In this document: one piece after another, positions 537-59,078 of the stretch
Layout: each line of letters opens with the position of its first letter
Numbering within the stretch: the first letter of the stretch is position 1
Assembly (NCBI RefSeq): GCF_018873765.1
Contig: NC_057923.1
Span: 20,555,913-20,619,912, forward strand
Reading direction: 5' to 3'
Source: Telopea speciosissima
Taxonomy: Eukaryota > Streptophyta > Magnoliopsida > Proteales > Proteaceae
Length of the DNA stretch: 64,000 bases
Program-made: the position numbers and the translations under genes
Notes under the pieces: generated by a model
Database searches by the model: none
Told to the model about the DNA's origin: nothing
Seen by the model: the letters and a program-made list of their open reading frames with translations, nothing else

Positions 537-975
537 AGGCGTTATGCCACTACTGAGGCTTTATGCCTAAGGCGTTATGCCACCACTGAGGCTTTATGCC
601 TAAGGCGTTATGTCACCACCGAGGCTTTATGCCTAAGGCATTATGCCACTACTGAGGCTTTATGCCTAAGGCGTTATGCCACCACCGAGGCTTTATGCCT
701 AAGGCGTTATGCCACCACTGAGGCTTTATGCCTAAGGTATTATGCCACCACTGAGGCTTTATGTCTAAGGCGTTATGCCACTACTGAGGCTTTATACCTA
801 AGGCGTTATGCCACCACGGAGGCTTTATGCCTAAGGTGTTATGCCACTGCTGAGGCTCTATGCCTAAGGCGTTATGCCACCACTGAGGTTTTATGCCTAA
901 GGTATTATGCCACCACTGAGGCTTCATGCCTAAGGTGATATGCCACCACTGAGGATGCCTAAGGCGTTATGCCAC
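537..975. repeat. 33-bp tandem array in spacer of element A
   Basis: About 13 units of 33 bp follow each other, each close to the form GGCGTTATGCCACCACTGAG plus GCTTTATGCCTAA. Twelve full units fit in 537-932, and a shortened one continues to about 975. Because 33 is divisible by three and the units have no stop in one plus frame, an apparent 184-codon reading frame (384-938) crosses the array, repeating an 11-residue unit. I regard this frame as a by-product. Related, more degenerate 36-bp units around AAGGTCCGATGACC continue from 980 to about 1060. Tandem arrays between pol and 3' LTR are common in Tat-type elements. Confidence 0.9.
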
Positions 976-1215
976 CAAGGTCCGATGACCGCCCAAGCGC
1001 AAGGCCACCAAGGTCCGATGACCACCAAGGCGCAATGCCACTACCAAAGTCCCATGACTGTCAAGGGTCATAGGGCACCAATGCGTAATCAACCACCAAG
1101 AGACAATGCAATCAAAGAAAAGCAACAGCGATCACATAGAGAAGTCATAATAGTTACAACTCAAGTTCAAAAAGAAAAGGTTCAAGACGTCTATTAGTTC
1201 GGTACGGCCATAGGG

Positions 1216-3358: not shown

Positions 3359-3514
3359 GAACGACAAGAGAAGAATAGACTACTTACTCAAGAAAGCGAT
3401 CTCTCAGAAAAGAAGCTAGCAAGAAAAATGAAGTGCAGGCCACCTGTAAAGTATAAACAACAAATCCATCACAGACAAGAAGAAGAAGAGTGAAGAAGCA
3501 TGAGGGTCCATCGT

Positions 3515-3810
3515 ACCCACGGGTGCGACCACCCTAGGCTTGGCCTCACACCTACAGGTGTGGCCTCACGCCCATAGGCACGGCCACACACCAATAAGCA
3601 CTGCCTCACGCTCGCAGGCGCCGCCACCCTAGGTGCGACCTCACACCCGCAGGCGCGGTCTCACCCCCATAGGCGTGGCCACACCCGCAGGCGCGGCCTC
3701 ACAGCCATAGGCGCGGCCACCCCAGGCGTGGCCTCACGCCCACAGGCATGGCCACCCCAGGCGCAACCTCACACCCATAGGCGCGGCCTCACCTAGGTAC
3801 GGCCCTGCAT
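3515..3810. repeat. GC-rich minisatellite (CAGGCGCGGCCTCAC type)
   Basis: Tandem degenerate units of roughly 15 and 30 bp, built on GGCCTCACACCCATAGGCGC, fill this stretch between the antisense gene and the polypurine tract. The same motif family reappears inside the adjoining LTR (about 4500-4690). Confidence 0.8.
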
Positions 3811-10058: not shown

Positions 10059-10064
10059 AGTTTT

Positions 10065-10082
10065 TGACGCCGTTGCCGGGGA
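10065..10082 (+). promoter_or_regulatory. Primer-binding site (tRNA-Asp type)
   Basis: TGACGCCGTTGCCGGGGA lies 6 bp after the LTR end. It matches the classical plant tRNA-Asp site TGGCGCCGTTGCCGGGGA with one change (G to A at position 3). Confidence 0.88.
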
Positions 10083-10643
10083 GATTATAGTCCATTTTAT
10101 TTTTTCGATTTTTAAGTAGTTCGAAGTGTTTTAGTTTATTATTTTCTCTTCTTTTTCTGAAAAAAAAAATCAGCTTTTGAAAACCTCTTCTTGTTTCTTT
10201 TCTATTTCAAATAGTGTGCGCCTAATCTAAAGTCCTTCATATGCTTCAACCCTCCATCTTTTGGTGTCTCTCATAGGATTAAGTTACCTATGACACTACA
10301 TCTTAACTTGGTTGGGTGGATTGGCATGTGACTTATCTTTGGAGGTGACCACTCTTGATAACAGGAAAGTGACATAGTTAGAGCGTTGGAAACATAAACG
10401 TATAGTAGTCCTCCACTCTATATCAGAATCCATTTGGAGTCGCCTGTAGGTGGCTATAGAAGACTATACGGGTTCCCTTGTTGTCAACCTATATGGCATC
10501 CTTACAGCTTTGGAACCATTGTTTTGATTTTTGAGGGATAGATGCACTATTTATCTTGGGCTCCCTCTTATTTTTAGTATTTTTTTTTCATAAGTCTTTT
10601 ATTTTTTTTCTTCTTTAATTTTTCAAAGGAGACCTCATATCTA
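10083..10643 (+). other. 5' untranslated region of Athila-like element
   Basis: AT-rich leader between the primer site and gag. No reading frame is recognisable. Confidence 0.6.
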
Positions 10644-12224
10644 GTGGCTACGGTGTGGACTCGTGATTCATCTAATCGTCTTATTAGAATACCACCTCCT
10701 CCACTACCCTTAACCCCACCTTTGACCATGGTTGACCAACAACCCAAGACTCTTAAGGATAGGTTCTACCCCACCAGGGCTGCACAGCCCTCATGCATTA
10801 GTCTGTCTGTTGTTACAGGGAATAACTATGAACTCAAGACCAACTTCATTAGCATGCTACCCCATTTCCATGGGATGGCTAATGAGGATGTATATCTTTT
10901 TCTTAGGGAATTTAAGGAGGTTTGTGTTCTAATTAAGGTCCAGAATTTGACTGATGATGCAGTTAGGCTTAGGTTTATACCCTTTGCCCTGAAAGACCAG
11001 GCCAAGAAGTGGCTTTATGGACTACCTACAAACTCCATTAATACATGGGATGAGTTCACCATTGCCTTTTTGAGAAAATTCTTCCCTCTTCACAAGACCA
11101 ATAAGCTTAAGAGTGACATCCTCCAGTTCAGGCAGAAACCACATGAGTCATTTTCTAAATTCATGGAAAGATTCAAGGACCTCCTCTTAGAATGCCCTCA
11201 CCATGGTTTCCACTTGTGGCAACTATGCCAAATTATTTATGAGGGTATTGATTATCAGACCAAGTAACTTGTAGAGTCCATGTGTCCAGCAGGCTTTACT
11301 TCTTTTTCTGAGGAGAATGATGTATGAACATTCTTAACCAACTTGACTGATAAGACTAGGGAATGAGAAGCTTCCCAAGAGGCTGAAAGGACCACTAAGG
11401 GATATCTCATTGAGGGTATGCCAGCCAAGGAGGCCAAACTTGACAGCCTCATAAAATGGTTGGAGTCCATAGTTCTTGAAGAGTCTATACCAGTTAATCA
11501 GGTTAACCATGTGTCGGTATGCAGTTGGTGCCAAACCCCTGGACACCTTTCTGAGGAATGCCCCAACACCTTGGTGGGCAATTTCAGTATTGAGAATGTA
11601 AGTGTTCTCTACCAAAATAACCCATATAGCAATGCTTACAATCCAGGATGGAGAAATCACCCCAATTTCTCCTGGAATCAATAGAACCAAGCAGGCCCAT
11701 CCAACTTTAACCATCAAGGCAAGCCTGGTGTCCAAAGGCCCAACTTTACATCACAAAACCAAAGGCTATCTCCTAACCCTTTCCCCCCTCGTCTTCATTC
11801 AAGACCTTCTATTAATTTTGCTAGGCCTCCTCACCTTGCACCTTATCAGGAACCCCCAGGGTTTACCAATACAGGAGAGGTAACAAGACTGAATGAGATG
11901 GACAACAAGATAGCTCTTCTCATGACAAGCCACAATAATATGGAGAAACAACTCACCCAGCTTGTCACAATCCTGCATGAGAGGGAAACAGGGAAGTTAC
12001 CTAGCCAACCTGAGCCAAATCTTAGGCATCAGGTTCATATTCAGTAAGGTACCCAAGCTCCTCCAACCAATGTTGCACAAGGCCAACAGCACCAAGGGCC
12101 CTCCAGACAGGTAAATGTTGTTTATGCTTTAAGGAGTGGTCGTGAGTATCAACAGACTAGTGCACCTCAGTCTTTACCATCTCATACTCCTATTGACTCT
12201 CCCCCTTCTGAAGAGGCCATTGAA
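10644..12224 (+). pseudogene. gag of Athila-like element, broken
   Basis: The first frame (to 11267) has the retrotransposon gag domain: FHGMANEDVYLFLREFKEV, then KDQAKKWLYGLP, TWDEFTIAFLRKFFP and FRQKPHESFSKFMERFKDLL. The expected start is GTG rather than ATG at 10644; the first in-frame ATG is 10728. After a TAA at 11265 the same frame continues with more stops. It includes a zinc knuckle CSWCQTPGHLSEEC (about 11520-11561; C-x2-C-x4-H-x4-C) that would bind genomic RNA, then an N- and Q-rich linker. The stops show the protein is not made whole. Confidence 0.88.
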
Positions 12225-13145
12225 GTGCCTACTGTTCCAGGTTCGTCTGATGAACCTGAAAATATTTCAGATGATTTGGTTGAGGAAACCAAAGAGGATT
12301 CTGTTGAGGAAGTTAAAAAGCCCAACCCTGAAAGAATTTATACCCTTCCTGCCCCTTTCCCAAATAGGTTGGTTAGCAAGAAATCTCCTTCTGTGGAGAA
12401 GATATTAGATGTAATCAAACAGGTTCAGGTGAATATCCCCTTGTTGGATGTCATTGCCCAGATCCCCGCTTATGCTAAAGTCCTCAAAGACTTATGCACT
12501 CAAAAGCGGACCACCAATGTGCCCAAAAAGGCATTCTTGGCTGCTTACATCAGTTCTCTCATCTCGCAGTTAGTAGCAGCCAAGCATAAGGATCCTGGCA
12601 GCCCCACCATCTCTTACACTATAGGCAATACTACTATTGATCATGCCTTATTGGACCTTGGTGCAAGTGTGAATCTCTTACCCTTTCATGTCTACCAACA
12701 ACTAGGATTGGGAGAACTGAAACCCACCAAAATCACTCTTCAGCTTGCAAATCGGTCGGTTAAAGTTCCTAAAGGAATGATTAAGGATGTCCTGTTGAAG
12801 GTTGGGGAATTTATTTTTCCTGTAAACTTTATTGTTTTAGATACCCAACCTACTGCTAACTTTAAGGATCAAATCCATATCATCTTGGGTAGGCCATTCC
12901 TAGCTACCAGCAATGCTTTAATCAATTGCAGGAATGGTCTCATGAAATTATCTTTTGGCAATACTTCTGTTGACTTCAATGTGTTTAGGTTGGGCAAGCA
13001 GCCTGATATGGATGACGAGGTGCATATGCTTCAAGGATTTTTCGATGATATTGATACGTTCTTTGAGATTGATTTTGATTCGGGATTTCAAGAATGTATG
13101 CAGGAATTGGAGGGTGTTGATGATACCCCCTTATCTGAGGTCTAG
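12225..13145 (+). pseudogene. Aspartic protease region of Athila-like pol
   Basis: The 306-codon open stretch is in the same frame as gag. It contains the retropepsin active site LLDLGASVNLLP at about 12648-12683, followed by ILGRPFLAT at about 12883. Athila proteases usually show DLG where others have DTG, so the site itself is not evidence of damage. The N-terminal part is acidic. The stop at 13143-13145 separates it from RT, although in the family the two are joined. Confidence 0.85.
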
Positions 13146-13160
13146 AGCATCCAACCACCT

Positions 13161-14924
13161 TTGGAACCCTTTGGACCCCTATCCACTTTTATTCCCAAAT
13201 CCTCTATTATTGAGCCCTCCACATTAGAGTTGAAGGCGTTGCCCTCCAACCTCAAGTATGCCTTCTTAGGATATGATCATACTCTTCCTATTATTATTGC
13301 TTCTGATTTGACTTCTATTCAGGAAGAAGAGTTGATTAAGCTTCTAAAGGACCATAAGGAAGCTATAGGTTGGACCATGTCTAACATTAAAGGTATTAGC
13401 CCCTCCATTGTTCAACATCATATATATCTGATTGAGAGTTTCAAACCTTCTAGGGAACCCCAAAGGAGGACTAATCCTGTGATGAAAGAGGTAATCAAGA
13501 AAGAGATCCTAAAATGCTTGGATCATGGCATCATTTATCCTATTTCTGATAGCCAATAGGTGAGTCCTATGCAAGTTGTGCCTAAGAAAGGAGGAGTCAC
13601 TATAGTTGAGAATGCTAATAATGAGTTGATTCTAACCCGTATCTAAACGGGATGGAGAGTGTGCATTGACTATAGAAAACTGAATGCGACAACTTGGAAA
13701 GACCACTTCCCCTTGCCTTTTATTGATCAGATGTTAGAGAGACTAACTGGCCATAAATATTATTATTTTTTTGATGGTTATGCAGGCTATAACCAAATTT
13801 CTATTGCTCTAGAGGACCAACACAAAACCACTTTCACATGCCCTTATGGAACGTTTGCTTACCGGCGTATGCCTTTTGGGCTTTGCAATGCCCCTACTAC
13901 ATTCCAAAGGTGCATGATGAGTATCTTTTCTGATATGGTAGAGCACTTTCTAGAGGTGTTTATGGATGATTTTTCTATTCACGACTCTACTTTTTCTAAT
14001 TGCTTGCATCATCTCTTTTTGATTTTTAAAAGATGCATAGAAAAAAACTTGGTCCTGAATTGGGAGAAGTGTCACTTTATGGTAAAGCAAGGCATAGTTC
14101 TTGGTCATATTGTGTCTAAAGAAGGAATCAAGGTTGATAGATCTAAGGTGGACCTTATTATCAATTTACAACCATCCAAGAGAGTGAAGGACATTAGATC
14201 TTTTCTTGGCCATGCAGGTTTTTACAAGAGATTCATCAAGGACTTTAATCAGATAGCTAGACCTCTGACTTTTCTTTTGGCAAAGGATTGCCCATTTGAT
14301 TTCTCTTCTGAGTGTCATGATAGTTTTGAGCAATTGAAAAGAGCTTTGACCTCAGCCCCCATTATTCAAGCTCTAAATTGGACAGTTTCATTTGAGCTTA
14401 TGTGTGATGCCTCTGATTTTGCTATAGGGGCTGTTCTTGGATAAAGAACCAACAAATTGTCCCATGTGATTTATTATGCAAGTCGGACTCTTAATGATGC
14501 ACAACTTAATTATACCACCACTGAGAAAGAATTTTTAGCTATTGTGTTTGCTTTAGAGAAGTTTAGGCCCTACTTGGTTGGATCACATGTGATTATTTAT
14601 ACTGATCATGCAGTTATTAAATATTTTGTGCAAAAGAAAGATGCCAAGGCTCGCATCATTAGGTGGGTCCTTTTGTTACAAGAATTTGATCTTGAAATTA
14701 GGGATAAGAAAGGGTGTGAAAATTTGGTTGCAGACCATCTATCCCGACTGCCTAATTCCTTGACTGTTGATTCTCCAGTCAACGAGAATTTTCTTGATGA
14801 GTATCTGATGGCAGTGTCTAGTGAACCTTGGTTTGTTGACATTGTTAATTATCTGGTTACGGGTGTGACACCTGCACATTGGTCCACCCAAGATAAGAAT
14901 CATTTCTTTCTTTTCACAAGTTAA
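13161..14924 (+). pseudogene. Reverse transcriptase and RNase H of Athila-like pol
   Basis: The frame is interrupted by stops at 13557, 13644 and 14442. Visible RT motifs are DYRKLNATTWKDHFPLP, FFDGYAGYNQI, YRRMPFGLCNAPTTFQ and the catalytic FMDD at about 13959. Athila RTs typically have FMDD where others have YVDD. RNase H follows with CDASDFAIGAVLG (cut by the stop), [15 protein letters not shown] and [10 protein letters not shown], then the linker ADHLSRLP. The frame is lost at a TAA at 14922, where the integrase part continues shifted by one base. Confidence 0.9.
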
Positions 14925-16132
14925 GTATTTCTTTTGGGATGATCCTTATCTTTTTAAGACCTGTTCGGATCAAGTAATTAGGAGATGTGTCCCTGATCAT
15001 GAGTAACAATCTGTCCTATCTTTTTGCTATGATCAGGCTTGTGGAGGCCATTGTGGGCCTAATAAGACTGTGGCCAAGGTTTTACAATGTGAATTTTATT
15101 GGCCTAGTCTGTTTAAAGACTTTTTTACTTATTGCAAGGCATGTTCTTCATGCCAATCCTTAGGGCGTCATTACTAAGAGAAATATGATGCCCCTCAACC
15201 CAATTCTGGTGGTTGAGGTGTTTGATGTATAGGATATTGATTTTATGGGGCCTTTTCCTAACTCTTTTGGTAATCTGTACATATTACTTGCAGTGGACTA
15301 TGTGTCCAAATGGATTGAGGCAGTTGCTTGTAAGACCAATGACCACAAAGTGGTTGTGAAATTTTTTAAGGAGAACATCTTCTCCCGTTTTGGTAATCCC
15401 CAGGCTATCATTAGTGATCGGGGCAAGCATTTTTGTAATCGGCCTTTTGAGACCCTCTTGAGAAAGTATGGTGTCGTCCATAAGTTGGCCATACCCTACC
15501 ATCCCCAGACCAGTGGTCAGGTTGAGGTTTCAAATAGGCAGATCAAGCAAATTCTTGAGAAAACCATCAACCCAAACCGCAAGGATTGGTCTAATCGGTT
15601 GGTAGATGCGTTGTGGGCTCATAGGACAACCTTCAAGACCGATCTTAGTCAATCTCCGTACCGTCTGGTGTATGGAAATGCATGTCACTTACCTGTAAAG
15701 ATTGAGCACAAGGCCTTTTAGGCTATCAAGAAGCTTAACTTTGACCTACCCACTGCAGGTGCCTATAGGAAACTTCAACTATCTGAGTTGGAAGAGCTTA
15801 GGAATGAGGCATATGAGAATGTCTGGATTTACAAGGAAAAAACCAAGGCTTTCCATAATAGGCACATTTTGAGAAAATCTTTTGAGGTAGGCCAGAAAGT
15901 TTTGTTGTACAATTCCTGTTTGCATATTTTTCCAGGTAAGCTGCGTTCTAAATGGGATGGCCCCTATATTGTTCAAAAAGCTTATCCTCATGGGGCTGTT
16001 GAAGTCCTCAATCCAAGTACAAGAGCTACTTTCAAGGTTAATGGCCAAAGATTGAAGCCGTACATAGAGATGCCTACTCCAGTTGAAGAAGAGGTCATGG
16101 ATCTCCATGAGCCTCTTTACCTTGACCCCTGA
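14925..16132 (+). pseudogene. Integrase of Athila-like pol
   Basis: The N-terminal zinc finger remains readable as GGHCGPNKTVAK and CKACSSCQ (about 15045-15155), followed by several stops. The core domain (15245-15721) has all three acidic residues: [16 protein letters not shown] and GQVEVSNRQ. The last two are 35 residues apart, as expected for D,D35E integrases. A TAG at 15719 precedes the C-terminal domain (15788-16132), with [18 protein letters not shown] and VNGQRLKPY. The core is intact at the residue level but the gene is broken around it. Confidence 0.9.
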
Positions 16133-16793
16133 TATCCTAGTATGTATCCCCTCCCTTGTCCTTATTCTTTCTTTTCTGCATGCATTGAGGACACTGCATG
16201 AATTAAGTGTGGGGGGTTGTGTTGGACTTTAATTGTGAAATTTGATTGTGGCGATAGTTTTTTGTTATGTGCATAAGTCTCTTCGATTTGTAAAGCGAGA
16301 GTGAGAGGGAATTAGGTGCCCTAGTATGCGAAAAAATAAAAAAATCTCTTTTCAAGGATGGTAGTTGGTTTGTATCCGGTGATGGGGATTGAGTTTGAAA
16401 ATGTGAGTGCTACTTTATGTGATGGTTAGATTCCTCTATGTGTTTATGGACCCCTTTGACCTTTTGGCTAGTAGTTGAGACCAATTTGTTTGTAGCAAAG
16501 CATGAAAGTGAAAGTGAATGAAAAAAAAAAAAAAAAAAGAAGAGAGAAACAGAAAGAAAAGTGGAATTCCTTGGGACTAGACAGGACACTGTGTCTCATG
16601 AAGTAGGGTGACTTGATCGAAATTCCTTGGAAGGAAACTCAAAAAAAAAAAAAAACTCTTGCATCAATGTCTTAATGTCTTATGGATACATGCAAAAAGC
16701 AAAGCTACCAAGTATTTGGGTGTCTAGTGTATGCTCCACCATGTCATTCAAAGACTAGTAGTAGAGTAGAAAAAGAGTTTGTTGTTGAAAAAG

Positions 16794-16824
<31 letters not shown>

Positions 16825-17299
16825 TTTGCCTTAATGCCTGGAGAAGAAAGTATGGTAAAAAATACTCAATGCCTAAGTCTTTGGTTCCATCAGTGCTATG
16901 AGTGGTTTACTTGAAGGCGAGTAGTGTTCAGAAAATATGAGGAGATCCCTTGACCTTGATGCATGCTTGTTACTTGAATTAATGTGGGGTGATAAAATTC
17001 AAGTGTGGGGGAACCTTTGGCTCCTTAATCTTTAGTTGAGTATTTCTTTGAGATTGTATGCCCTATCTTACTTATGCCATGAGAAAAATTTACATCATTT
17101 TTTTTTATTTATTGAATTTTGGGTGTATATTCACTGTAAACACCCACGAGACACAACTCGTCCACTAGGGGTAACCTAGGGGTTGAAAGGCTTGTTGCAC
17201 ATGCTAAGTGCAACCATGATTCCTACGAAAGTGAGTTAGGATTTTTTTTGCATTCTAGGTTAGTTTATCTTTTGCTTTACTTGAGGACAAGTAACGTTC
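16133..17299 (+). other. Spacer between pol and 3' LTR, no env-like gene
   Basis: This 1.2-kb stretch holds A tracts (about 16519-16538, 16636-16656 and 16790-16821) and no reading frame. Many Athila elements have an env-like frame here; none is seen. Extra polypurine-like motifs AAGTGTGGGGG occur at about 16206 and 17000, before the functional one. Confidence 0.7.
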
Positions 17300-17314
17300 A
17301 AGTGTGGGGGAATC
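17300..17314 (+). promoter_or_regulatory. Polypurine tract of Athila-like element
   Basis: AAGTGTGGGGGAATC directly precedes the 3' LTR start TGATGAGCAC. Confidence 0.8.
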
Positions 17315-19019
17315 TGATGAGCACATTTATGTGTGAAATCTTAGGGCATAAAACATACATTTTACCACAATGGACAGAGTTACTCGGTGCTTTCTTGTGC
17401 TTCTTCAGGGTTTAGGTGAAATGTTGTGAAAATGGAGGAGATGATGTTAAGGAGATGTTTTTAAGCTTTTTAGAAGTGTTAATAGTATGGATGCACAGCC
17501 CATTGAGTCAGCTTCGCAACGGTTCAAACAGCACTTGATTCCGAGTTGAAACGAAGAAGTTATGGCCGTTTTCGTAACGACGCGCGAAAATGGTCTGTAG
17601 GGGTTTATTTATAATTATTGACAGTCGGATGGGGACAAAGTGAAGCAAAAATTTGGATTCTAGGGGCCTTAACGCCATTATCAAAAGTTACTTTACTGTA
17701 CTCGAAAGATTCCATTTGCAAGGCTCTGGACAGTCCAACTTCAACTTGAGATATCTTGGGCTCCCCAACTCCGAATTGGGTGAAATTTGGGTCTATTTTG
17801 GGTAATTTTTCGCAAGGAACACAATGGTGAGGCCTACATAAGCACCCCATACTCCACGTTTTTTGAAGGACAGAATGGGTATTTTATTTATTCTTGAAGG
17901 AATCCTAGTCATCACCCTTACTCTCTCTCTCCTCCAACTTCTCAAGGGCACTTCTAGAATTCTACTTGGGATAAATTTATATTTTCTCATCTATGGAAGG
18001 TTGAAAAATCAAAGATGTTTTGATTTTATTGCTTGGAGAAGATATTTACAAAGAAAAGAAAGCACTTGTTAGAATTGGAAGTTTACTTTTCTAGAAATAG
18101 AAGGTCTATGTAAACAATATTCTCTTCTTCTTCTTTCTATTTTTTTTCTTTTTTCTTAGGATTCAAGGCATTGTAAAAGAGGAAAGAGAAGAGAATATTC
18201 TATTTTCTTAGGGAATATTTCTCCTACACTTCCATCTTCTCTCTTCTCCTCTCTTCCACCTATAAATACCCCTTACCTCTCTTGTAAAAATGGCTCATTC
18301 ACTTAGTGAAATTTCTTCTCTTTTTCTCATTCTAATTTGTGATTTTTGGTTTTTCTAAGTTCTAGTTTGCTTTTTTGATTTTCATTTAATGGTTATAATA
18401 GGTTTAGTTTATGCTTTAATTTCAATTTAAGTCTTCAATTGGGTTGTAATTTCTTAATTCTAGTTTAGGTTTTAAGTCTTCTAGTCTCAATTCTTAAGTT
18501 GATGACAAGACTTGAAGATTTAGAAGAGGAGGTCATGGTAAATTTATGCAAGTATTCAAGCTTTTCAATTACATTCATACAAGCACATCCAGGTTTTACT
18601 ATCTAAACTCTCAATCTCATTCTCCATCTCCTCTATCTCTCTCTATCTTCTTCTTCTTCCCCCTCTATTTCTTTTATTTTAATTTTATATGATTGTGATT
18701 TATGGATGCATTTTTATTCCCTTATTTCTTTTTATGTGGTTAGTAATTCTGGCTGCATTTTTATTCCTTTCAATTCGCTTTAGTTTGATAGGTTAGAAGA
18801 TCATGTGTTAGGACGCCGATTTAATCCCTTAATTTTGTTAGATGCTTATGAGTTAGGATGCATTGATTTTTGTTAGTTTAATTAATTTAATTTAACACTT
18901 TAATTTGGTTCACTTTGCATTACTAGTAAGTTAGTTAAATAGAGTGGCGTATATCTCCTCGTGTTCGACCCGTAGCTACGATTGACCCGTACGCTTGCGA
19001 TTTTATTTTAACTCTAACA
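17315..19019 (+). repeat. 3' LTR of Athila-like element
   Basis: 1705 bp from TGATGAGCAC to ACTCTAACA, paired with 8355-10058. A TATA box is at 18261-18268. Confidence 0.93.
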
Positions 19020-38134: not shown

Positions 38135-39195
38135 CTAGGCAGTCGTAGAAGGACTAGCTAACTCCAAACTGTCCTCACCTAGAGGTAGATCCGCAGGTGG
38201 ATTGGTAGGAAGTGGTGCGGGATTAGGAGGGGTCGGGGTGAGAGGAGCGAGATCAGGAGGAGACATGGGAGAAAAAATAGAAAGAACGGAGGTGGAAGAA
38301 ACATATAGGTGGTAGGTGGGAAAAAATAATGTGTTTTCCACAAATATGACATTGCGGGAAAGACGGATTCGATTAACCGTTGGATTAAAGCAGAGAAACC
38401 CATTTTGATTAGGTGCGTAATAGAGAAAAGCATAGGCGGAAGATTGAGCTGAGAATTTAGTGCGCTCACAAGAAAGGAGGTGGACATAGCAAAGACAACC
38501 AAAAGTCCATAGAATGTCGTATTGGGGATTATGTTTGTACAACCGAAAAAAAGGAGTGTCATTGGCGATGGTCGGAGAGACAAGGCAATTAATTAGATAT
38601 ACGATCGTCTGGACCGTTTCAGGCCAAAACTCTAGGGGAACTGTGGACTTCGGAAATAAGGTGCGAACTGTTTCAAGAATATGGCGGTGTTTCCGCTCCG
38701 CAACCCCATTTTGTTGAGGGGTGTCAGGACAAGATCTCTGAGAAATAATTCCGTTGTCACACAGGAGGGATTGAAAAGGACAAAATATATATTCCCCCTT
38801 GAATTTGTGTGGAGGGTTTTTAATTTTGTTTCAAATTGAGTCTCAATCATAGCCAAAAATTAAATAAGCACAGTGTAACCATCCGATTTGGTGCGCAAAA
38901 AATACACCCAAGTAAAACGGCTATAGTCATCCACAAATATGATAAAATATTTAAAACCCTGCCAAGAAATAACCAGAGCCATGCCCCAAACGTCAGTATG
39001 TACGAGATCAAAAATCGCAATTGATTTAGATGTATGTAAACGGAAAAGGTAAAACCATGCTTTTGCCCATCAAACAACTAGAGCATGAAAAAGAAGCATC
39101 CTGATAAGTCAAATGCGAATTATGCGAAGAAGAATCCGAGTTCAACATAAAAACTAATTTTTGAGCATTGGGGTGTCCCAATCGACGATGCCAGA
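38135..39195 (-). pseudogene. Copia integrase, strongly decayed
   Basis: The GAG-pre-integrase zinc-binding part is seen as LGHPNAQKLVF and CSSCLMGKS near 39070-39180. The core is spread over three frames: FVDDYSRFTWVYFL-like words near 38900 and TPQQNGVAERKHRHI-like words near 38690-38740, the usual segment containing the catalytic Glu. The part at 38135-38542 is the C-terminal region, with FGCLCYVHL and a Pro-rich linker. Several frameshifts are present. Confidence 0.85.
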
Positions 39196-39199
39196 GATT

Positions 39200-39694
39200 T
39201 CACAAAGTTTGTTTATCCGATGAAATAGTGGTAGAAAATGCAGAAACTGCTGGAGAGGAATTGGCGTCCAAAGTGAACAGCCGACCTTGTTTATGCCCCT
39301 TCCCGACCAGCTTCCCACTTCCCCGATCCTGTATCACACAACCATCAGGGAAAAATAATACATTGCAGTTTTTATCTACCAATTGGACAACAGAAAATAA
39401 ATTATCAGATAATGATGGCACTAATAAGACATTGTTATGTGTCATGGATGGAGTAATGGTAACCTGCCCCATGCCTGATGCCTGGACAGTATGTCCATCT
39501 GCCGTGTGAACATTCTTACCAGTAGCATTATGGTGAAATGTCTTAAAATGACGGGAAGACCATGTCATATAATTGGATGCTCCAGAATCTAAAATCCAAG
39601 ATGAGGGTGTGGGCTGAGAAATACCTGTGAACCCCATGACGGTGAAAGCAGATGTAATAGACAATTGAAGTGGAGGGAACTTAGAAGTATTCAA
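39200..39694 (-). pseudogene. Copia aspartic protease
   Basis: Open stretch containing SSWILDSGASNYMT, the copia protease active site (DSGAS), then a DNLFSVVQLVDKNCNVLFF segment leading toward integrase. It is separated by stops and a frameshift from gag. Confidence 0.88.
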
Positions 39695-43943: not shown

Positions 43944-46900
43944 ATGTGGAAGACTGGGAGGCAGGGGATTAAGTACTTGCAACATCTGAATGCTGCAAAT
44001 GTCCACACTGCTTTGTTAGAAAAAGGCCAAAATCGTGTCATGGAGGCTTCTCTTACTCTCATTCGCGAGAGGGCAAAACTTAAGGTTTGTTTTTGCCCCA
44101 TCTAATATACTATTATCTCCATAAATCTTTCCTCTTTTAACTTGTGGAGTCACTTGTGACAGGTTACTAACTGTGGTTTTGTTTTCTGCACACTATGTCA
44201 ATTATATTATAACATTCATATTAACTGTTTACTAGGGATGACTGATGTGATTATACCATGGAAAATATATATTTGAAGAACGATTGCAGATAGAATGTAA
44301 ACAAAATTTTAATGTACGCTAAGTCTTGTCCACTCTCTTTCCGTCTCTGATAGTCTGTGGTTAGCTTAAAAATAAGTTAACTTCAAAACTAGAATTTGCT
44401 CCTCTTTAGTTCTGGGCAACTGACAATTAGCAGCCAGTTTGTGCGCGTGGGTGCAACATTTACCAACTGTTTGGAAGTTACCTGAGTAGTAAGTTTATGT
44501 GCAAATCTAGTTCTGAACTCAACACTTCTATATACCCAGAGAACCATTCTGAAGTTGATTAGCTCTTAAGTGAGCATGTGAATTCTAGTTCTAAGTTTCC
44601 ACATTATTTGCCTTCTACTCTGTTGGTGGTTTGATTACAAAGGAAGGATTTGGCTTTCTAGTTAAGCTTTTCCCCACACTCCTATACTTTGAGGTTTTCC
44701 CTTAGACAAAGGATCATGCATTATACCTTACGCTACATCCTGATTGTTGAATGTATTGGAGAAGTAATGTTAAGATGCGTTGCTATTAAAACATGAAAGC
44801 ACACTCTGCATTGCTCCTATTTTGGCATGGTTCCTTGTTATTGGTGGATACCAAGAATGTCTATATCATTTAAATACCCACCTTCTCTATTTTATCATGC
44901 ATATACTCATTAAAATCTGTGTATTTTGCCTTTCATTTGAGAGACTTTGAACTTTCAACATTTACGTCTTGACACTATGATCCACAATCTAAGGGTTAAT
45001 ATTGATTTCTTCAGGGGGAGCTTGTGCGAGCATTAGGAGGTGCTAAAGCATCAGCATCACTTCTTGGAGTTCCTTTAGGGCATAACTCATCTTTTCTTCA
45101 GGGACCTGCATTTGCTCCTCCACGGATTAGGGAGGCAATCTGGTGTGGCAGCACAAATTCTGCAACTGAAGAAGGTAAGTACAATGCTCTTTCATTTGAC
45201 ACAAGAGCTTGTAACATGCCAACACATTTTCACAATTATCCTGTGAGTACATCTCATATGTTTGTGAATTATGCAGCTTTTGTTGTTGTATCATTTTGTT
45301 ATATTGAAAATGTTGAACATGCCTATCTGTGATTTTGCTATACAATGTAGTTTGGAGACACAAGTGTTCCCGATGCCTCATAGAAGAATGCCTTTACTTT
45401 CATTTGTATGTAATCCACAGCTTTGTATGACCATAGACTAATAAGTACCAAAGATTTACCTGTCACTGGGTGTTCTAATTCATGACCACAGACTGATAAG
45501 GCAAAGGTTAACCCATCCAAAGTGGTTAAGCTTTCTAATCAAAGTGTATTTTGTGTATTAAGGATGGTAGGATGTTGTTCATATATAGAAAAAGGATGAT
45601 GACAGTTCTTTAAATGGGAGACATCCATTAACTGCCCTTAGGTGGCTTTAAATTACATGTAGAACTTTCCTCCTAGTTTCTACATTTACCCTTAGTTTTT
45701 GAAACAAGTACTTCCTGTCTCCACTTTCTATGGGTAAGTAATTAAAAAAAATGCTGATTCTGGGTGACTTTTTTTTTTTTTTAATGGAAATAAATTTATT
45801 GAAGAATGAAAAGGGGGCAAACAAGCCTAAAGACAGACAAAAGCAAAGAAAGCTAGAGCCTAGAAAGGGACTCAGTCCTAAAAACAATATTGGAGAGGGC
45901 AACAAGCCACTTGCTCAGCCAAGAGAAATAATAAAATAAGACTACGGGGGTTCTGTGAGCCGCACCGAGGGGGTTCTTATCCTATTCGATCGTCGGGGGA
46001 TCTCAGCATATACACCAGGCCGATCAAGTGCCACACGGGCCAAAAGAGCCTCCTCCTCTGGTGAAAAGGGAGATGAAATTTTTTGCAACCCCACTCCTAA
46101 CTCCTTTTCAACCTCTCTATGAGAATTTTTTATGGTTTCCGCGACCAATCCAACTTCAGTCTGGCGTCGCCGACGGCGTGATCCAGGGGTAATCGCTTGC
46201 TCCACATTCCGATCCCGAACTTGCCGGTGTCGTGACACTTTTGTGAAAGGAGCTTCACCCCCTGCTTCATCACCTTGCTTATTCGTAGCGTGAACCACAA
46301 CTGCAGTTCTACCATTATCACAGCTTGTGACAGAAGTTGGTGAAAGAACCACTTTGTTTGACCCTTCCCGGTCAGACCCCAAATCCCACCCAACTTCTAC
46401 CCTTCCCAGTCAGACCCCAAATCCCACCCAACTTCTTGGTCCAACCCGTCTTGCTCTAAGTTCGCCTCCACCTCCTCTAAGAGTCTATCTTGTGATGATT
46501 CACATCCCAAAATTTTCTCCCTCATTCCACTATTGTTTCTTGCGAGAATGGAAGTGGGATAAGATCCCCTTGAAATCCCTTCAATCAAGTTAATTTCTCC
46601 GAGATTCTCTCCCACAGTTTCCTGAATTGATTGGATATGGTTTGCCACCAGGTGCCTAGCCAACGACTTTGATTTTGAATTTGAATTGGAAATCAAGTTT
46701 CTGCCTTGACTCGGAGTATCCTTATCTCTTCGAACCACTAAGTTCATCTGTCCTGACTGGTTAGCCACCGAGTTAACTCCATCTTGTTCGACATAGGTTG
46801 CACCAGGGATTGGCACCGTCTGGTCCTTAGCCTTTTGACGGACGCCGTCCTCCTTCTTTAGGTGACAGACTGAAATTTGATGGCCAACACGTTTGCATAA

Positions 46901-49900
46901 ACCACAACGAGACATCCCATCTACATACACAACTCGCTGCGTAAAAAAGAATTCTTTATTAGTTCCTAGCTCCTTATGTTCCACTTGAAACTCTTCTATG
47001 CGAACAAACTTCTCTGATGCATCCACTTCCACTAAAACAAGAGCAAAGTGCCCAAGTAGTCCTTGTCTAGTCCGACGATCAAGAGCCACTAGTTGTTCAA
47101 CTGCTTTTGCCATGGAAAGTAAAACATTTACATGCCAGTACTCCAACAGGAGGTCCAGAAAGCGAACCCACACAAGTTTTGTCAAAATCGGCTTCTCATG
47201 GATGCTAAAGTCCGGTTTCCATCGCTGGAACCTGATAATTTGATCTCTGAACTTCACAGGGCTCCGCCTCCATACCTCTGCCATGTCTCTTTCCGATGCA
47301 AACTGGAAAGCAACATAGCCTTTTCCTAACGGGTGCATAATCACTTGCTACTTCAAATTCCATTTCTCTCTCGCTTCCTTCATGAGATTGTCAAGCGAGT
47401 TTAGGCGAAAGTTTAAGCGACCAATCAACGCGAACCTGAAATTCTGACGAATACTTTCATAATCTTTTTGGGGAATGACGACACGGGTAATATTTCCGGC
47501 CTGGATTGGCTCTGGAAGAGTGTCAATCGCAGGCCAAGAACCCACATTGGCCTTCACCGCCTCCCCTCCTACCGCATTGGCATAAGATGTCTTATGCACC
47601 GCCTCCTCAACCTCATTAGATCCTGCAGCCTGAGGCGCATCCGCCATCCCTAGGCAAAGTTCACTTGAGATTTTTCATGTCTTTTCCGATACAGGAGGAC
47701 TGATTCTGGGTGACTTGATGTAAGAAATGTCATTGGGTTCACATTCAAAAGAATCATCGTTCCACTCTACATTAGAACTTGACAAGCTGGGTTGCACATT
47801 TTCTGAATAGAATTCATACACATGGCAAAAATGGTTAATATTGGTCAATCTTTTTTTTTTTGGGTGAATATATTGGTCAATTTTTGACTTTGCTTGCAGA
47901 GGAGAATTCTATGAATGAATCTTCATCCATAATTCATCTTCTTTTTACAATTAACAAAGTTTTTCAATATTCAAAAGAGAAATTGAGTATTATGTTCAAG
48001 ACCTTTTGACTAGAACAAGGAATGATAAAGAAAGGACAGAACTGATGGATTAAGCTATAAGTGGCCTTTCAATTGATCCAAGCTCCATATTTTATAGATA
48101 CGTAAGTGAGTTGGGTCATTCCAACTCTACTTCATTGGTTTTATTCTGGATCGTTCCACATGCTCATTTTTAAACTGGTGTTTCATCCAAGCACCAGTAT
48201 CATATCATATGTTGGTTTTTTTCTGTATCATGTTACATGCTTGCCAGTGGTTTCCACCAACAATAAACAAGTTGCATTATCATTCTTGATGCATATCATC
48301 ATAATCATGTTGTCCGCAACAGCAGTGGAAAGAATGAAATACAAAGATCAACATGTCTAATGCCTCTCCTAGTTGGAAGAAGAACTTTAGGGGCCCTGTT
48401 TATTAGGATAGAAAAGTCCGAAGATAAGTAATTCCTTCGTACATTTTTTACCCAAGATATAAACCATAAACTTCTTATTCACATTATCATATGCTTCACT
48501 TTCGCATACCACTTCCAACTTCCCAGATGCTTTATTCTTGAACTCATAGGAAATCAGAATCTCATTCAGGATCATCCTATTTTTTCGTGAAAGCTCCTTG
48601 AGAGGTGAATATGACATTGTCAAGGAATTCTCTTTGAGATATGGACTAACCCTTGTAATGATCTTTACAGATGCTGCCAGTGAGGTTGATGGGCCTAGCT
48701 TCTGAAAATCACTTGTACCTCCCTTTATTTACTTTGATGATGTTCCCTTCATAATATCCTAACATTCCTCAGTAAAGAAGAAATTGTTGGGCCTAGGTGC
48801 TTTATCCCCTTCCATATTGCTAATGGCCCTTCTTATCTTGTCCTTCTCAAAACCTTAGAAATTCCTCCTTTTCCAGAATCGGACACCCTACTGGCCCTGC
48901 TCCCTCATGCTGTCTGGAAAGGGGTGTATATCTCCACAGTATATGTGGCTAGCCTTTGATCAATCAATCCATGTCCTAACTAGAAACATGATTCTCTGCA
49001 CCAACCATTTGGCCTCACAATGATGACAGCTAAAAAAGGAAAAAGGATCATGTTTTATTTATTTGTACTTTTTTACCTGTATGAAAAGCTTTGAATAACA
49101 GATCATTTTCTATATGTCCTCAATAGAGTGAAGGCATTTTGGAAAAAGGTTCCCTGATATTATATTTGAAGTTAGCCTCCAGGAGAACTTGTGAGACCTT
49201 TGGAGATTGACAAGGGTATACAAGGTCCACCAAATTTTTAGTGCTTATATATCTTTCTGGTGCAACGGTAAGGTTGCTCTATTGCGACCTAGTGGTCGCA
49301 GGTTTGAGTTGGGAAATAGCCTCTCCGTGAAGTGGGGGTAAGGCTGCGTACATTATGACCCTCCCCAGACCCCGCAGTGTCGGGAGCTTCGTGCACTGGG
49401 TATGCCCATATCTTTCTGTGGCAGCATGTTGGGTTTTGCATTTCTTATCATTTTCATATATGTGAGCTTACTATACCTCAATGTTGTATGTATTTGGGAA
49501 TTGCAGGGAAAGAATTAAAGGATCCACGAGTTTTAACTGATGTTGGGGATGTTCCTGTTCAAGAGATTCGAGATTGTGGTGTAGATGATGATAGATTGAT
49601 GAAAATTATAAGTGATTCTGTGAAACTTGTGATGGAAGAAGTAAGACTTTGTTTTTTTATTTTCTTTTTGATATATCCAGTGTTTATGTTTCTCCTTTAA
49701 AGGCTACTTATTGATTATCTTCTAGAAATTCAGAAAAAGAAAATATCTCATGGAGCTTTTTGCAATTAGGGATTTTGTTTATTAACCCGGAATTGTATAT
49801 GCTTTAGGCCTTTGTTCATTTTTGTTTTAAACTTCCTTTGTTCTATAAGAGATCGTTCACACCCATCCTTTTTTTTTCTTGGGGGGTGGGGGGGAGGGGG

Positions 49901-54331: not shown

Positions 54332-55045
54332 TGTTGCGTGTGAAAACCTCCGATGCTTGGTTCGTCCACGGATGAGTCTACAAGAACCAAGTGATGAGCA
54401 CAAGAGAACCGGTGTGGCTCCGGCCTAGGACTCTCCGATGCTTAAGTCAGGTCTCCAATGCAACAGCGTAACTGCGTGGTAAAAAAATCAGATCATCAAT
54501 GGTGTTCCATACCTGGGTATTTATAGAGTGAGGAGGAGATGAGGCGGTTGGGAGAGTCCTAATATGGTAGGAGTCTTTCTTTCGGAAGGTTCTCCCGCAT
54601 AAAGCGGAGTGGAGAGCTATTTTCGGGGTCGGACTCTTATTAAGGTAAGAGTCCATGTAGAGTGCGATTCCGTGTTGCGCTGGGATCGTGGCTCGATCTT
54701 TATCCCGTGATTCTCGGGATGCGCTGACGTGGCCCGGAGATCCACGGTGGGGTGCTATGGCGACTTCAGTGGAGGAGGGCTCGACCTTGGAGGTCGGCCC
54801 AGGGGGTCGGCAGAGGAGGTCGGCCCGAGAGGTTGGTCTCGGCCACAAGATCAGCTAGGAGTCTACGGCTGACCTGTATGAGCTCGGCTTCATCCACCGG
54901 CTAGCTCGCTCGAATCTGGCTCTGTCATGTGACTTATCGGAGATGGGGTTGGCCCGGTCATCTGCTCGCCCAACTCGGTTCTCAGATTGAGGTCGGGTCG
55001 GCCATGTGGCAGCCTTTGATAGGTGGGGTGTTTTATGCCTCATCA
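54332..55045 (-). repeat. 3' LTR of element B
   Basis: 714 bp, pairing with 58366-59078. On the minus strand it runs from TGATGAGGCATAAAACACCC to ACACGCAACA. A TATA box (TATAAATA, minus) is at 54518-54525. Confidence 0.93.
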
Positions 55046-55086
55046 CAGGCCCCCCCACTCATCAGGGGTCGGCTCGACACTCGGCC

Positions 55087-55213
55087 CGGTCATCTGCTCG
55101 CCCAACTCGGTTCTCGGACTGAGGTCGGGTCGGCCATGTGGCAGCCTCTGATAGGTGGGGTGTTTTATGCCTCATCACAGGCCCCCCTACTCATCAGGGG
55201 TCGGCTCGGCACT
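55087..55213. repeat. Duplicated LTR edge plus polypurine tract of element B
   Basis: The segment from CGGCCCGGTCATCTGCTCGC through the LTR edge TGCCTCATCA, the CAGGCCCCCC tract and ACTCATCAGGGGTCGGCTCG occurs twice in tandem, at about 54953-55086 and 55084-55213. The element thus has two polypurine tracts and LTR edges about 130 bp apart. Confidence 0.9.
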
Positions 55214-55434
55214 GATGAGTGAAGTTCCCTGGTCCGCTTGTCTGGAAGATTTTTGCGGTTGAGCCGAGCTTATTTTTTGCCGCGGATTTGACGTTGCACG
55301 ATCTGACGGTTGGGTGTCAGTGCCACGTCAGCAGAGTCATTATGGCAGGCTCGGGAATTCGAAACGTCCCTTGATCTGGGCCGTTGGATTATGCTGAGCT
55401 CTGGTCGGCCGTTGGATCAGTAAAACCCAAGGAT

Positions 55435-55443
55435 TATAAATAG
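55435..55443 (+). promoter_or_regulatory. TATA box for the antisense gene of element B
   Basis: TATAAATAG lies 177 bp upstream of the ATG at 55620, on the strand of that gene and opposite to the element's LTR promoter. The spacing suits a plant promoter plus leader. Confidence 0.6.
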
Positions 55444-55619
55444 GCGACTCCTAACTATTCATTCCTTACTGCTCTAAGTTATTGACTTCTCGGCAAGCTT
55501 GGATTATTCAGCTTGGTAGCGCTCGGTGTCTACTTGTTCGTGATCAACTCGGCCTTTACTACATTTGCGCTCAGCTCATCCTTAGCTCTTCTTCAACCAG
55601 TAAGTCTTCTCCGTCCAGT

Positions 55620-57805
55620 ATGTCAGTTGGTAGTAGTCCTATGGGCGAGCTGTTCGCCAAGGTGACAGAGGGCGTGAGTTCGAGCCGAGAGCTCCCCGCT
55701 CGTTCTCTCACCATAGACCTGTTGGGCTCGACCTCGGATGAGCCCGATGTAGTGGAGCTTCGTTAGGCCGAGGTGGCCGAGCCTCCGTTACTCTTGGAGT
55801 TTGACCACGCGGCCCACCCAATTGCCGCAGATCGAGCCGAGAACTCTGGGTCGTCCTCATCCGATGAGGAATCAAGTGAGGGAGATTCGTCCGAGGTGGG
55901 GGTTGGCTCGGTCAGCTCGTCTGCTGACGCCCCTGAGCCCGAGGAAGGTAGTGTCGGCACCGTTCCTAGCACGATCACGGAGGCCGACCTCGACTATCTG
56001 AGGACGACCTATGCCATCCCCGAGGACATTCAGCTCCGAGTTCCTAACCCCGGGGAGATGGCCTGCTTCATCAGGCCCGGCGAGGTGGCTCCCCGTTCTC
56101 GGCCTAGTGGACCAGATCTTGGACCATTTCCACCTGTCTCCTGGTCAGTTGGTGCCGAACTCTTGGCTGGCCGTCTACGGCTTCTATGCCTTATTCTGCG
56201 AGATGGGCCGAGGTGCGAGCGTGGCGCTTTTCTCTCGGCTCTTCTTCTTGAAGAAGTCTCCCGAGAAGGGGTGGTACTATTTCTGCCGCCGATCGGGGAA
56301 GAGTGCGGCTCTGGGCGGCCACAAATTTCTGGTCGGCATGCCGACCTTTAATAAGTATTGGAAGCCTCGTTTTTTCTTCGCTTCCATTCCCAACAGCTCT
56401 CTCCGAACCGAGTGGAAGGAGATGAACTTGAATTACGTCAATAGGGTCCTACCCCTGACCGAGAACGAGATGACCTCGCTCGACCTGATCCTCCAGCGTT
56501 CGCCCTTCGATGTTCTCCAGCTTCAGGACGAGGGGTTTCTTCAGAGGTGGCATATGACCCCTGGTAGGAGCCCGACCCAAGCCCGTCTCTGTGGTCCGAG
56601 CTGACCCCTTTACTTAGTCTTCTTTTCTGTTTCTACTTATTTTTTATGTTCTCGATTTCTCTTGCAGTGGTTAGCCACATTCCCCCTATGGATACAACTC
56701 GGCTAAGGGCCGAGACCCTTGCAGATCGAAGGAAGAAGAATATTGAGAAGAAGTCTCGGGGCGAGTCTTCCAAGGCCCCCAAGGGCAAGGCCGTGATGCC
56801 GGGACCGTCGGACGCTGTGGTCGGCCTTGAGGCCGAGAAGAATACGGGCCCAGCGGGGTCCCCGAGGAAGGGGAAAGGCCGAAAAGGCGAGAGGAGCCCG
56901 CCGAGAGACATCAAACGTCAGAAGCTCTCGGTCAATCTGACGAGTGGTGGTCTTCCGCCCGTGGCTTCACCCACCAACATCTCCCGATACGTCTTGGGGA
57001 GGGCCTTGGCCAGCAACGTTCCTGTGAGGCCGACCTGACGCCTCTTCCCAGGGGACTCGGCATTGACGTCGGCCGCACACGCCAAAGAATGGCTGGATGC
57101 AGGTCGGCTTCCAACCGACAAGGAGAAGCTCGAGGCGCTGTCTGACCCCGAGCTCCTCTCCACTCTGTTCCAAGATTTCAACATGGTAAGTTTCCTGGTC
57201 GACTTTTGTGATTAGATATGATCTGTGTAGTCTGTCTTGATTTTTGTTCTCATGATCTTTTGTAGGGATTCGCCAAGGCAGTGGAGACCATGCTTCGCTT
57301 TGAGCGGCTCCTGACTGAGAACCATTCCTTGGGCGTCCAATGTAAGAAGGCCTATTAGGATGCCCAGGATGCCGTTCAGAGGCGTCGAGAGACCCAAGAG
57401 AAGCTCACTGCTGTCGAGGCCGAAGTGGAGAGCTCTTAGGCCGAGGTGATCAGGCAGAGAGAGAAGGTCCGGGCTCTGCAGGTTCAGCTTGTCGAGGTGA
57501 GGGAGAAGGCCAAGGAAGATCTGGCTGCGGCTCGGGTCGAGGCGGTCAGAGACTATCTCCAATCGGAGGAGTATGCTGATGTGTACCATGAGATCAGGAA
57601 GCCTCCCTACGCCGAAGGTTTCGAGGCAGGTCGAGCTGAGCTTTTGGCCGAGATCAAGGCGACGTACCCTGATCTCAATCTCTCCCGGTTTGATGATGAC
57701 GCGACTACCTTCGCCTGGGAGTTGGGAGATGAGGAGGGAGCCGAGGTCACCCAGGCTTTGCCCTTTGAGGAGCCTACTCGGAGTCTTCTGACGAGACGGG
57801 TGTGA
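55620..57805 (+). pseudogene. Antisense three-exon gene of element B (PF04195-like), decayed
   Basis: Exon 1 (55620-56563): MSVGSSPMGELFAKVTEG, an acidic Ser-rich stretch, then a domain with DQILDHFHLSPGQLVPNSWL, FLKKSPEKGWYYF, FNKYWKPRFFF and SPFDVLQLQDEGFLQRW. It resembles PF04195 by eye. Intron A 56564-56667 (GTAGGA...GCAG, phase 1). Exon 2 (56668-57185) is Lys-rich, with RKKNIEKKS and KGKGRKGER, possible nuclear signals. Intron B 57186-57265 (GTAAGT...GTAG, phase 0). Exon 3 (57266-57805) is a coiled coil, then YADVYHEIRKPPYAEGFEAG and an acidic end. Stops at 55764, 57036, 57356 and 57437 and a frameshift near 56090 disable it. Exon layout matches the copy in element A. Confidence 0.78.
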
Positions 57806-57839
57806 GGACGCGGCTCGGCCCTACGCCAGCCACCATTTT

Positions 57840-58295
57840 GCTGTAAGTTTCTCTCTGTGCGGACCGGAACTGGAGGGGGCGCGGCCAGTGGTTGGCCCAT
57901 CAGCCTGCCTCGGGCCATCTGGTTCATGAAGGTGCACAGCATCTCGTTGGTGTGGAGCATCTGCAACTGCAAGTCCATAACCTGTTGATTATTTGCCGGG
58001 GCTTCGGGGTCCAAATTCTTCGGCAAGGGTGGCGGTGCTGGTAGGCCCATCCCGTCGAAGCTTGGCTCGGCCTGTATCCGGCCAGCCGCGGCCGTGGTTA
58101 GCACCACTCCCCCATTCCCACCCTCCGGTGGGGGAATGGTGCCCGTAATGGGCTGCGCACCCCCTGCCCGAGGGGGTCTTCTGTTTATCCCCTGCCGAGA
58201 GGCTTCGGGGTGCGGTGATCGCCTCGTCTGCCCAACGGTTGCGGCTCGTCCTTTCGGGAAGTCGAGCCATGCTGCCCTGACCTCGTGTGCACCAT
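57840..58295 (-). pseudogene. gag N-terminal fragment of element B
   Basis: Starts MVHTRSGQHGSTSRKDEP at 58295, about 50 bp after the primer site, then shifts frame. The readable rest has a Pro/Gly-rich stretch and VMDLQLQMLHTNEMLCTFMN, a helix typical of plant gypsy gag N-termini. It ends where the antisense gene's 3' end begins. No capsid core or zinc knuckle is present. Confidence 0.65.
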
Positions 58296-58344
58296 TATTA
58301 TTGCTCTTGGAATTGGTAGAAACGACGATGCTTGCTGATGTCGT

Positions 58345-58365
58345 TCCCACAGACGGCGCCAAATC
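58345..58365 (-). promoter_or_regulatory. Primer-binding site of element B (tRNA-Asp type)
   Basis: ATTTGGCGCCGTCTGTGGGA on the minus strand lies directly after the LTR end CGCAACAG. It is a standard plant gypsy primer site. Confidence 0.88.
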
Positions 58366-59078
58366 TGTTGCGTGTGAAAACCTCCGATGCTTGGTTCGCC
58401 CACGGATGAGCCTGCAAAAACCAAGCGATGAGCACAAGAGAACCGGTGTGGCTCCGGCCTAGGACTCTCCGATGCTCAAGTCAGGTCTCCAATGCAACAG
58501 CGTAACTGCGTGGTAAAAAACCAGATCATCAATGGTGTTCCATACCTGGGTATTTATAGAGTGAGGAGGAGATGAGGCGGTTGGGAGAGTCCTAATATGG
58601 TAGGAGTCCTTCTTTCGGAAGCTTCTCCCGCATAGAGCGGAGTGGAGAGCTATTTTCGGGGTCGGACTCTTATTAAGGTAAGAGTCCATGTAGAGTGCGA
58701 TTCCGTGTTGCGCTGGGATCGTGGCTCGATCCTTATCCGGTGATTCTCGGGATGCGCTGACGTGGCCCGGAGATCCACGGTGGGGTGCTATGGCGGCTTC
58801 AGTGGAGGAGGGCTCGGCCTCGGAGGTCGGCCCAGGGGGTCGGCAGAGGAGGTCGGCCCGAGAGGTTGGTCTCGGCCACAAGATCGGCTAGGAGTCTACG
58901 GCTGACCTGTATGAGCTCGGCTTCATCCACCGACTAGCTCGCTCGAATCTGGCTCTGTCATGTGACTTATCGGAGATGGGGTCGGCCCGGTCATTTGCTC
59001 GCCCAACTCGGTTCTCGGACTGAGGTCGGGTCGGCCATGTGGCAGCCTCTGATAGGTGGGGTGTTTTATGCCTCATCA
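58366..59078 (-). repeat. 5' LTR of element B
   Basis: 713 bp, nearly identical to 54332-55045 with scattered changes. TATA box (minus) at 58551-58558. The close match suggests a younger insertion than the Athila-like element. Confidence 0.93.

Follow-up and report, generated by a model that had tools for sequence, protein, structure and literature searches.

The window analysed here, by which we mean the full 64,000-nt stretch of Telopea speciosissima contig NC_057923.1, contains two retroelements, A and B, each bearing a gene on the strand opposite to that of the element itself. These genes share a common plan, in which a PF04195 domain is followed by a phase-1 intron (intron A), a basic linker, a phase-0 intron (intron B) and a coiled coil. 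We consider it likely that they are copies of an ancestral three-exon antisense gene, which is spliced, and whose protein is kept by selection and acts on the life cycle of the element. An earlier reading of the letters of the window (the original prediction) had proposed a real, spliced and selected antisense gene, and at the level of sequence this main inference appears to have been largely right.

Gene B occupies 55620-57805 on the plus strand. Its exon 1 (55620-56563), which codes for a polar N-terminus and the PF04195 domain, contains one stop and one frameshift that break its frame. Next comes intron A (56564-56667; 104 nt, phase 1, GTAGGAGC...TCTTGCAG), which is placed at a residue homologous to those in element A and in a third family, C, described below. 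Exon 2 (56668-57185), the basic linker, has a single stop at 57036, and intron B (57186-57265; 80 nt, phase 0, GTAAGTTT...TTTTGTAG) again falls at a residue homologous in A and C. Exon 3 (57266-57805), a coiled coil by homology with a C-terminal motif, has two stops. This copy is decayed: its frame shifts near 56100 and is interrupted by stops at 55764, 57036, 57356 and 57437. Gene A runs on the minus strand from 3358 to 1216: exon 1 (2507-3358) is interrupted by stops and shifts frame once; intron A (2506-2424; 83 nt, phase 1) reads GTAAGAGC...CTATGCAG; exon 2 (1924-2423) is open; intron B (1923-1843; 81 nt, phase 0) reads GTGAGTTA...GATTGTAG; and exon 3 (1216-1842), likewise a coiled coil by homology, is open. 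All four introns of the window are of the GT...AG type, with a T content of 40-49% and a GC fraction of 0.35-0.46 as opposed to 0.49-0.60 in the exons. The coordinates, ends and phases originally given for the introns of both genes are exactly as found here, and the claim that A and B carry the same gene is borne out by the common layout and by the homologous residues at which the introns fall in A, B and also C. The suggestion of a PF04195-like domain holds for gene B (33.5 bits, spanning 56104-56562, against a cut-off of 26.2 bits) and for a sibling of gene A (L030, 44.1 bits), but fails for the broken window copy of gene A itself (13.5 bits). Relatives from two further families score 57.1 (L006, family C) and 55.5 bits (L051, family D).

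The same introns recur across the genome. The assembly searched comprises 822.9 Mb in 1287 contigs, of which C1-C11 measure 57-88 Mb each. It yielded 2440 first-look candidates for PF04195, and all 150 of those scored were above the cut-off. For the family of gene A, 1008 first-look candidates were obtained and 40 scored, from which 30 loci were taken, with element A included and counted once. Intron A begins with GT in 30/30 of these copies and ends with AG in 28/30, while the corresponding counts for intron B are 29/30 and 30/30. That intron positions should be common to other members of the family was a check set beforehand, and this retention of the splice dinucleotides in 28-30 of the 30 copies upholds it. 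Intron A measures 83 nt in 19 copies, 98 in nine, 82 in one and 95 in another; intron B is of 81 nt in 29 copies and 83 in the remaining one. The codon split by intron A is that of valine in 25/30 copies, and the length of exon 2 leaves a remainder of two on division by three in 30/30. In all five copies with an open exon 1, the frame ends at residue 292 if it is read unspliced and at residue 433-529 of 660 if it is spliced.

A further 20 PF04195 loci provided 12 members of family C and five of family D, with three (L043, L048, L050) left out. One of the latter, L050, is a fifth, divergent PF04195 gene with 30% identity to the C reference. Exon 1 of the C reference is 30-36% identical to that of A, 38% to that of B and 26-31% to that of D. 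In both C and D, the PF04195 region is followed by a phase-1 intron that in most cases divides a valine codon (4/5 in D), and the helix is preceded by a phase-0 intron. In C, the donors are GT in 12/12 copies for both introns, and the acceptors are AG in 12/12 for intron A and 10/12 for intron B. In D, intron A shows GT in 5/5 and AG in 4/5, and intron B shows GT in 4/5 and AG in 5/5. None of the C copies examined is free of stops or shifts. To compare positions across families, we aligned the 34 residues before each intron in 17 registers using single copies (five of the 30 A, B, 12 C and five D), whereby pairs within a shared family are non-independent. The register anchored on the intron was the best in 77/77 cross-family pairs of A, B and C, and this was so for each of the two introns. 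Hence, conserved GT...AG introns, with the frame kept across the exons, are present in A, B and C. In four of the D loci (L053, L054, L055 and L058), we observed a further charged and, by eye, helix-like open reading frame (ORF) downstream on the same strand, at about 3100-3640 in the orientation of the gene, which is possibly a second antisense gene or exon.

The strongest case for a protein-coding role comes from the substitution patterns in family C. Here, omega (dN/dS, the ratio of nonsynonymous to synonymous substitution rates) was computed on 10 of the 12 rows (45 pairs), with L041 and L056 dropped for poor alignment of exon 3 and L045 retained despite a strongly diverged exon 3 (0.60). 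The exons were anchored separately, and exon 1 was taken as the 870 nt after the frameshift of the reference, L044. Read in the spliced frame, all three exons are under purifying selection, with median omega values of 0.15 in exon 1, 0.17 in exon 2 (defined for 40 pairs) and 0.14 in exon 3 (defined for 36), as against 0.94-1.38 in the other sense frames. A low omega (0.22-0.28) also appears in one reverse-strand frame, as is to be expected of a frame that shares its third positions with the gene. The C introns diverge like third codon positions (0.43 and 0.475 as against 0.41-0.51), with second positions at 0.15-0.25. Relative to L044, lengths differ by a multiple of three in only 2/21 cases for intron A and 3/16 for intron B, compared with 27/43 in exon 1 and 23/31 in exon 2. 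In family D (five rows, 10 pairs), purifying selection is weaker, with omega at 0.22, 0.26 and 0.48 in successive exons versus 0.64-1.07 in the other frames; its introns diverge at 0.179 (A) and 0.252 (B) against 0.23-0.26 at third positions. The original claim that the gene is kept by selection thus stands for all C exons and, with less strength, for those of D, but finds no frame-specific signal within A.

Several copies also display a plausible promoter of their own. A TATA box lies at 55435-55446 on the plus strand, 185 nt before the ATG of gene B, as the sole match in 600 nt, where 0.17 are expected by shuffling. Comparable boxes occur 136-168 nt before the ATG in 9/10 C copies and 208-217 nt before it in 4/4 D copies, with a chance level by shuffling of about 0.2 per sequence; the count omits L042 and L044 of C and L053 of D, whose start is not given by the motif used. 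As for the protein, exon 3 of L042 (family C) is predicted to form one helix over residues 2-112, with a mean pLDDT (predicted local distance difference test) of 87-97 per ten-residue block in the first 110 residues. Because this predicted helix begins at residue 2 of the exon, intron B would stand right at the start of the coiled coil. The alignment recovers a C-terminal motif common to A, B and C, with A and B being 16-20% identical to L042. The structure model of exon 1 was unusable (pLDDT 44).

Element A permits its lineage to be assessed. The 3' end of its pol (by eye the C-terminus of integrase) lies at 1-304 on the plus strand, and the remainder lies to the left of the window, in L059. 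Taken together, these have the plus-strand order reverse transcriptase (RT), RNase H (RH), second RNase H and integrase-like sequence. RVT_1 (109.5 bits), RT_RNaseH (62.4) and RVT_3 (59.4) are above their Pfam cut-offs in L059, and the integrase domains Integrase_H2C2 (19.9) and rve (26.3) fall under theirs. We take RVT_3 in this pol to be the archaeal-type RNase H. Ogre and Retand elements are described as having a second RNase H of this type between RH and the integrase (INT; PMC6317226). Element A has a second RNase H in that place, which supports its assignment to Tat, and between its pol and the 3' LTR (long terminal repeat) it has the antisense TRP28 (PF04195) gene that typifies Retand. 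We accordingly label it as Tat/Retand-type, the Retand part of this sequence-based label being drawn from the RNase H order and from the presence and location of the antisense PF04195 gene. As pol is on the plus strand, the minus-strand gene A is antisense and downstream of it. An array of 33-nt tandem repeats (437-1030, plus strand) separates the two.

Element B is a complete insertion of 4.75 kb (54332-59078) with the target-site duplication GGTTC at both outer flanks. Its 5' LTR (58366-59078, minus; 713 nt) and 3' LTR (54332-55045, minus; 714 nt) differ at 22 of 713 aligned nucleotides, a Kimura two-parameter distance (K2P) of 0.032. The primer-binding-site side (58342-58365) reads GATTTGGCGCCGTCTGTGGGAACG on the minus strand and resembles the primer sites of plant gypsy elements. 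The polypurine-tract side (55046-55069, minus), which is G-rich in reverse complement, adjoins the 3' LTR. As the primer-binding site is on the minus strand, so is the sense of element B, and its plus-strand gene is therefore antisense. The claim that the gene is antisense to its element consequently holds in both cases, being opposite to pol in A and to the primer-binding site in B. In family C, too, the gene is antisense, as judged from integrase-like sequence seen by eye on the other strand in 8/12 loci. The 3320-nt internal region of B contains, apart from the antisense gene, a short sense-strand ORF just inside the primer-binding site (57607-58437, minus), which has no Pfam match and is possibly a remnant of the N-terminus of gag. 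Pol is absent, and element B is therefore non-autonomous, lacking the gag and pol complement of an autonomous element. The 'Tat-type' label given earlier to both elements is backed by the order of pol domains in A, while B bears it only by its primer-binding site and its gene. A 132-nt tandem duplication (54951-55213) runs across the end of the LTR and the polypurine tract of B, such that the LTR-end sequence is present twice.

Accordingly, in the scenario that we favor, Retand-type (Tat) Ty3/gypsy elements would carry an ancestral three-exon gene opposite to gag-pol, between pol and the 3' LTR. It would be transcribed antisense, in several families likely from its own TATA-containing promoter, and the removal of two short introns of about 70-105 nt would join the PF04195 domain, the basic linker and the long coiled coil. 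The introns would persist because the genomic RNA of the element carries their complement and, owing to the polarity of splicing, cannot splice them. Intron-based retrotransposition reporters are described as resting on this same polarity (PMC12786077). The protein, which would be kept by purifying selection (as in C and more weakly in D), is probably nuclear and might act as a coiled-coil dimer on the life cycle of its own element; we draw this from the layout and from the published nuclear GENE23 protein of Grande. Its possible roles include DNA binding, nuclear import, targeting and anti-silencing. Spliced transcripts resist RNA silencing in plants, and a resistant antisense transcript might be a further benefit of the introns.

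A number of observations run counter to this scenario. A fully open spliced frame is found in 0/30 A copies, and 0/30 have a TATA box within 490 nt upstream of the ATG. The ratio of nonsynonymous to synonymous changes within A is 0.64 for shared variants and 0.71 for singletons, with the other frames at 0.50-0.76 (shared), and transversions alone likewise yield no frame-specific signal. We read the absent selection signal, missing TATA box and closed frames of A as the outcome of drift after insertion in old copies. A polyadenylation signal was sought downstream of genes A and B and none was found. The 22 residues after intron B are in register in just 48/77 pairs of A, B and C. Family D is in register in 0/90 pairs for intron A and 46/90 for intron B; therefore, it has the common layout and phase, with the position not proven. 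Three of the five D copies can be read in frame through intron A, whose divergence of 0.179 points to somewhat greater conservation than that of a neutral stretch. In C, length differences of exon 3 from L044 are multiples of three in just 10/30 cases, probably in part due to decayed or poorly aligned rows. Outside this genome, a protein-database search with a C-family protein found no match among 7996 scored candidates, a single peptide pattern run against viral contigs hit six stretches, none of them a relative, and a sequence search of the PDB for relatives gave nothing.

These observations need to be weighed along with other explanations of the same loci. The antisense transcript might matter as RNA, via double-stranded RNA or small interfering RNA feedback on the element, with the reading frame being incidental. 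Such a role was raised as a possibility in a review that describes the antisense RNAs of several other retroelements as non-coding (PMC7264820), and it would sit well with the mostly broken gene copies seen here. However, it does not account for C introns that evolve as third positions do, or for the purifying selection that acts at the amino-acid level on each of the three exons, in C and less so in D, and we hold it to be unlikely. The supposition that what we call exons are in fact separate antisense ORFs, two or three in number and independent of one another, with coincidental or vestigial GT...AG pairs at their borders, gains from the D copies that are open through intron A, and from a published survey that counts PF04195 and Smc-like antisense ORFs apart (PMC11963269). 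Yet, the intron phase and residue position agree across A, B and C, the length changes of the C introns are mostly not multiples of three (19/21 and 13/16), and the introns are T-rich, all of which leaves this reading highly improbable.

Alternatively, a host gene might have entered the elements as genomic DNA, with some of its copies now being expressed by the host or domesticated instead of serving the element. The very presence of introns disfavors capture of a spliced sense mRNA as the origin, which would suit uptake as DNA, as would the abundance of the gene evident from the PF04195 search. Against this, the gene resides inside elements, beside integrase in A and in 8/12 C loci, where integrase-like sequence was recognized by eye downstream on the opposite strand, and the survey cited above (PMC11963269) reports no similarity to TRP28 outside transposable elements, no search of our own having been aimed at element-free copies. 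We therefore view the host-gene origin as very unlikely.

Beyond these two elements, the window has other retroelement sequences. At 8356-19019, domains of gag, protease, RT, RNase H and integrase on the plus strand lie between two direct repeats of 1.7 kb with 95.4% identity, and this by its sequence is a second, separate Ty3/gypsy-type element. On the minus strand, adjacent ORFs at 45942-47344 include one with DUF4283 (72.1 bits), a domain often found in plant LINE-type (long interspersed nuclear element) proteins, and Pol_BBD and SH3_retrovirus domains at 38138-39694 are probably remnants of a Ty1/copia-type polyprotein.

The antisense PF04195 ORFs of Retand elements are themselves already known (PMC11963269, PMC7264820, PMC6317226), and it is the model of a single gene split by introns that may be new here. 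Within the literature covered (PMC7264820, PMC11963269, PMC5599236, PMC3091746, PMC6317226, PMC12786077, in the portions available), we found no description of introns in this gene, with priority being unsettled, as Gomez-Orte 2013, Kejnovsky 2006, Steinbauerova 2011 and Ohtsubo 1999 lie outside the comparison. A survey of Retand reported an antisense TRP28 (PF04195) ORF in 97% of clusters (Vicient 2025, PMC11963269). These ORFs are like the present gene in domain, orientation, place between pol and the 3' LTR and nearby tandem repeats, but they were obtained with ORF Finder, the available text of the survey mentions no introns and has words on splicing only in its reference list, and the antisense ORFs of Smc type were tallied separately. 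Another survey, which considered unspliced ORFs of at least 250 codons, reported Transposase_28 for 23% of the Retand elements and questioned whether extra ORFs function at all, given how heterogeneous they were, with SIRE as the worked example (PMC6317226). A 2020 review urged a search for antisense and spliced transcripts, and describes gene23 of maize Grande, an antisense gene that has its own promoter upstream and codes for a nuclear protein, much as we propose for the present gene (PMC7264820). Plant LTR elements are generally without introns according to a 2025 review, with Ogre and EVADE as exceptions (PMC12786077). These two are plant LTR retrotransposons with functional introns, as the present elements would be, but that of Arabidopsis EVADE, unlike those described here, makes a subgenomic RNA by alternative splicing (PMC6317226, PMC12786077). 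HBZ of HTLV-1 (human T-cell leukemia virus type 1) has been named as a nuclear product in this context (PMC11963269). HBZ resembles the present gene in being antisense near the 3' end, and it is spliced, with a nuclear coiled-coil protein as product, as the present gene would be; it differs in belonging to an unrelated retrovirus and in having its promoter in the 3' LTR, whereas that of the present gene would be internal. The HBZ transcript is spliced, its protein has a leucine zipper and its promoter is that of the 3' LTR. The phrase 'spliced antisense' has reportedly been used for a retroelement in a paper on the antisense RNA of Drosophila HeT-A, which is a non-LTR element.

If the gene is indeed split by introns, then surveys based on unspliced ORFs fragment it and would thereby obscure its conservation. 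Once the introns are modelled, one protein emerges with a low dN/dS in every C exon, which makes its function directly testable, and the annotation of a large lineage of plant elements could be corrected. As a more speculative extension, which we offer tentatively and with more doubt than confidence, the antisense intron-bearing accessory gene might be an ancestral and selected part of the whole Retand lineage, in which the introns act as a permanent check on the strand, such that only transcripts from the antisense promoter make protein. It would then stand as the counterpart of HBZ in plants, retained even by elements without pol such as B.
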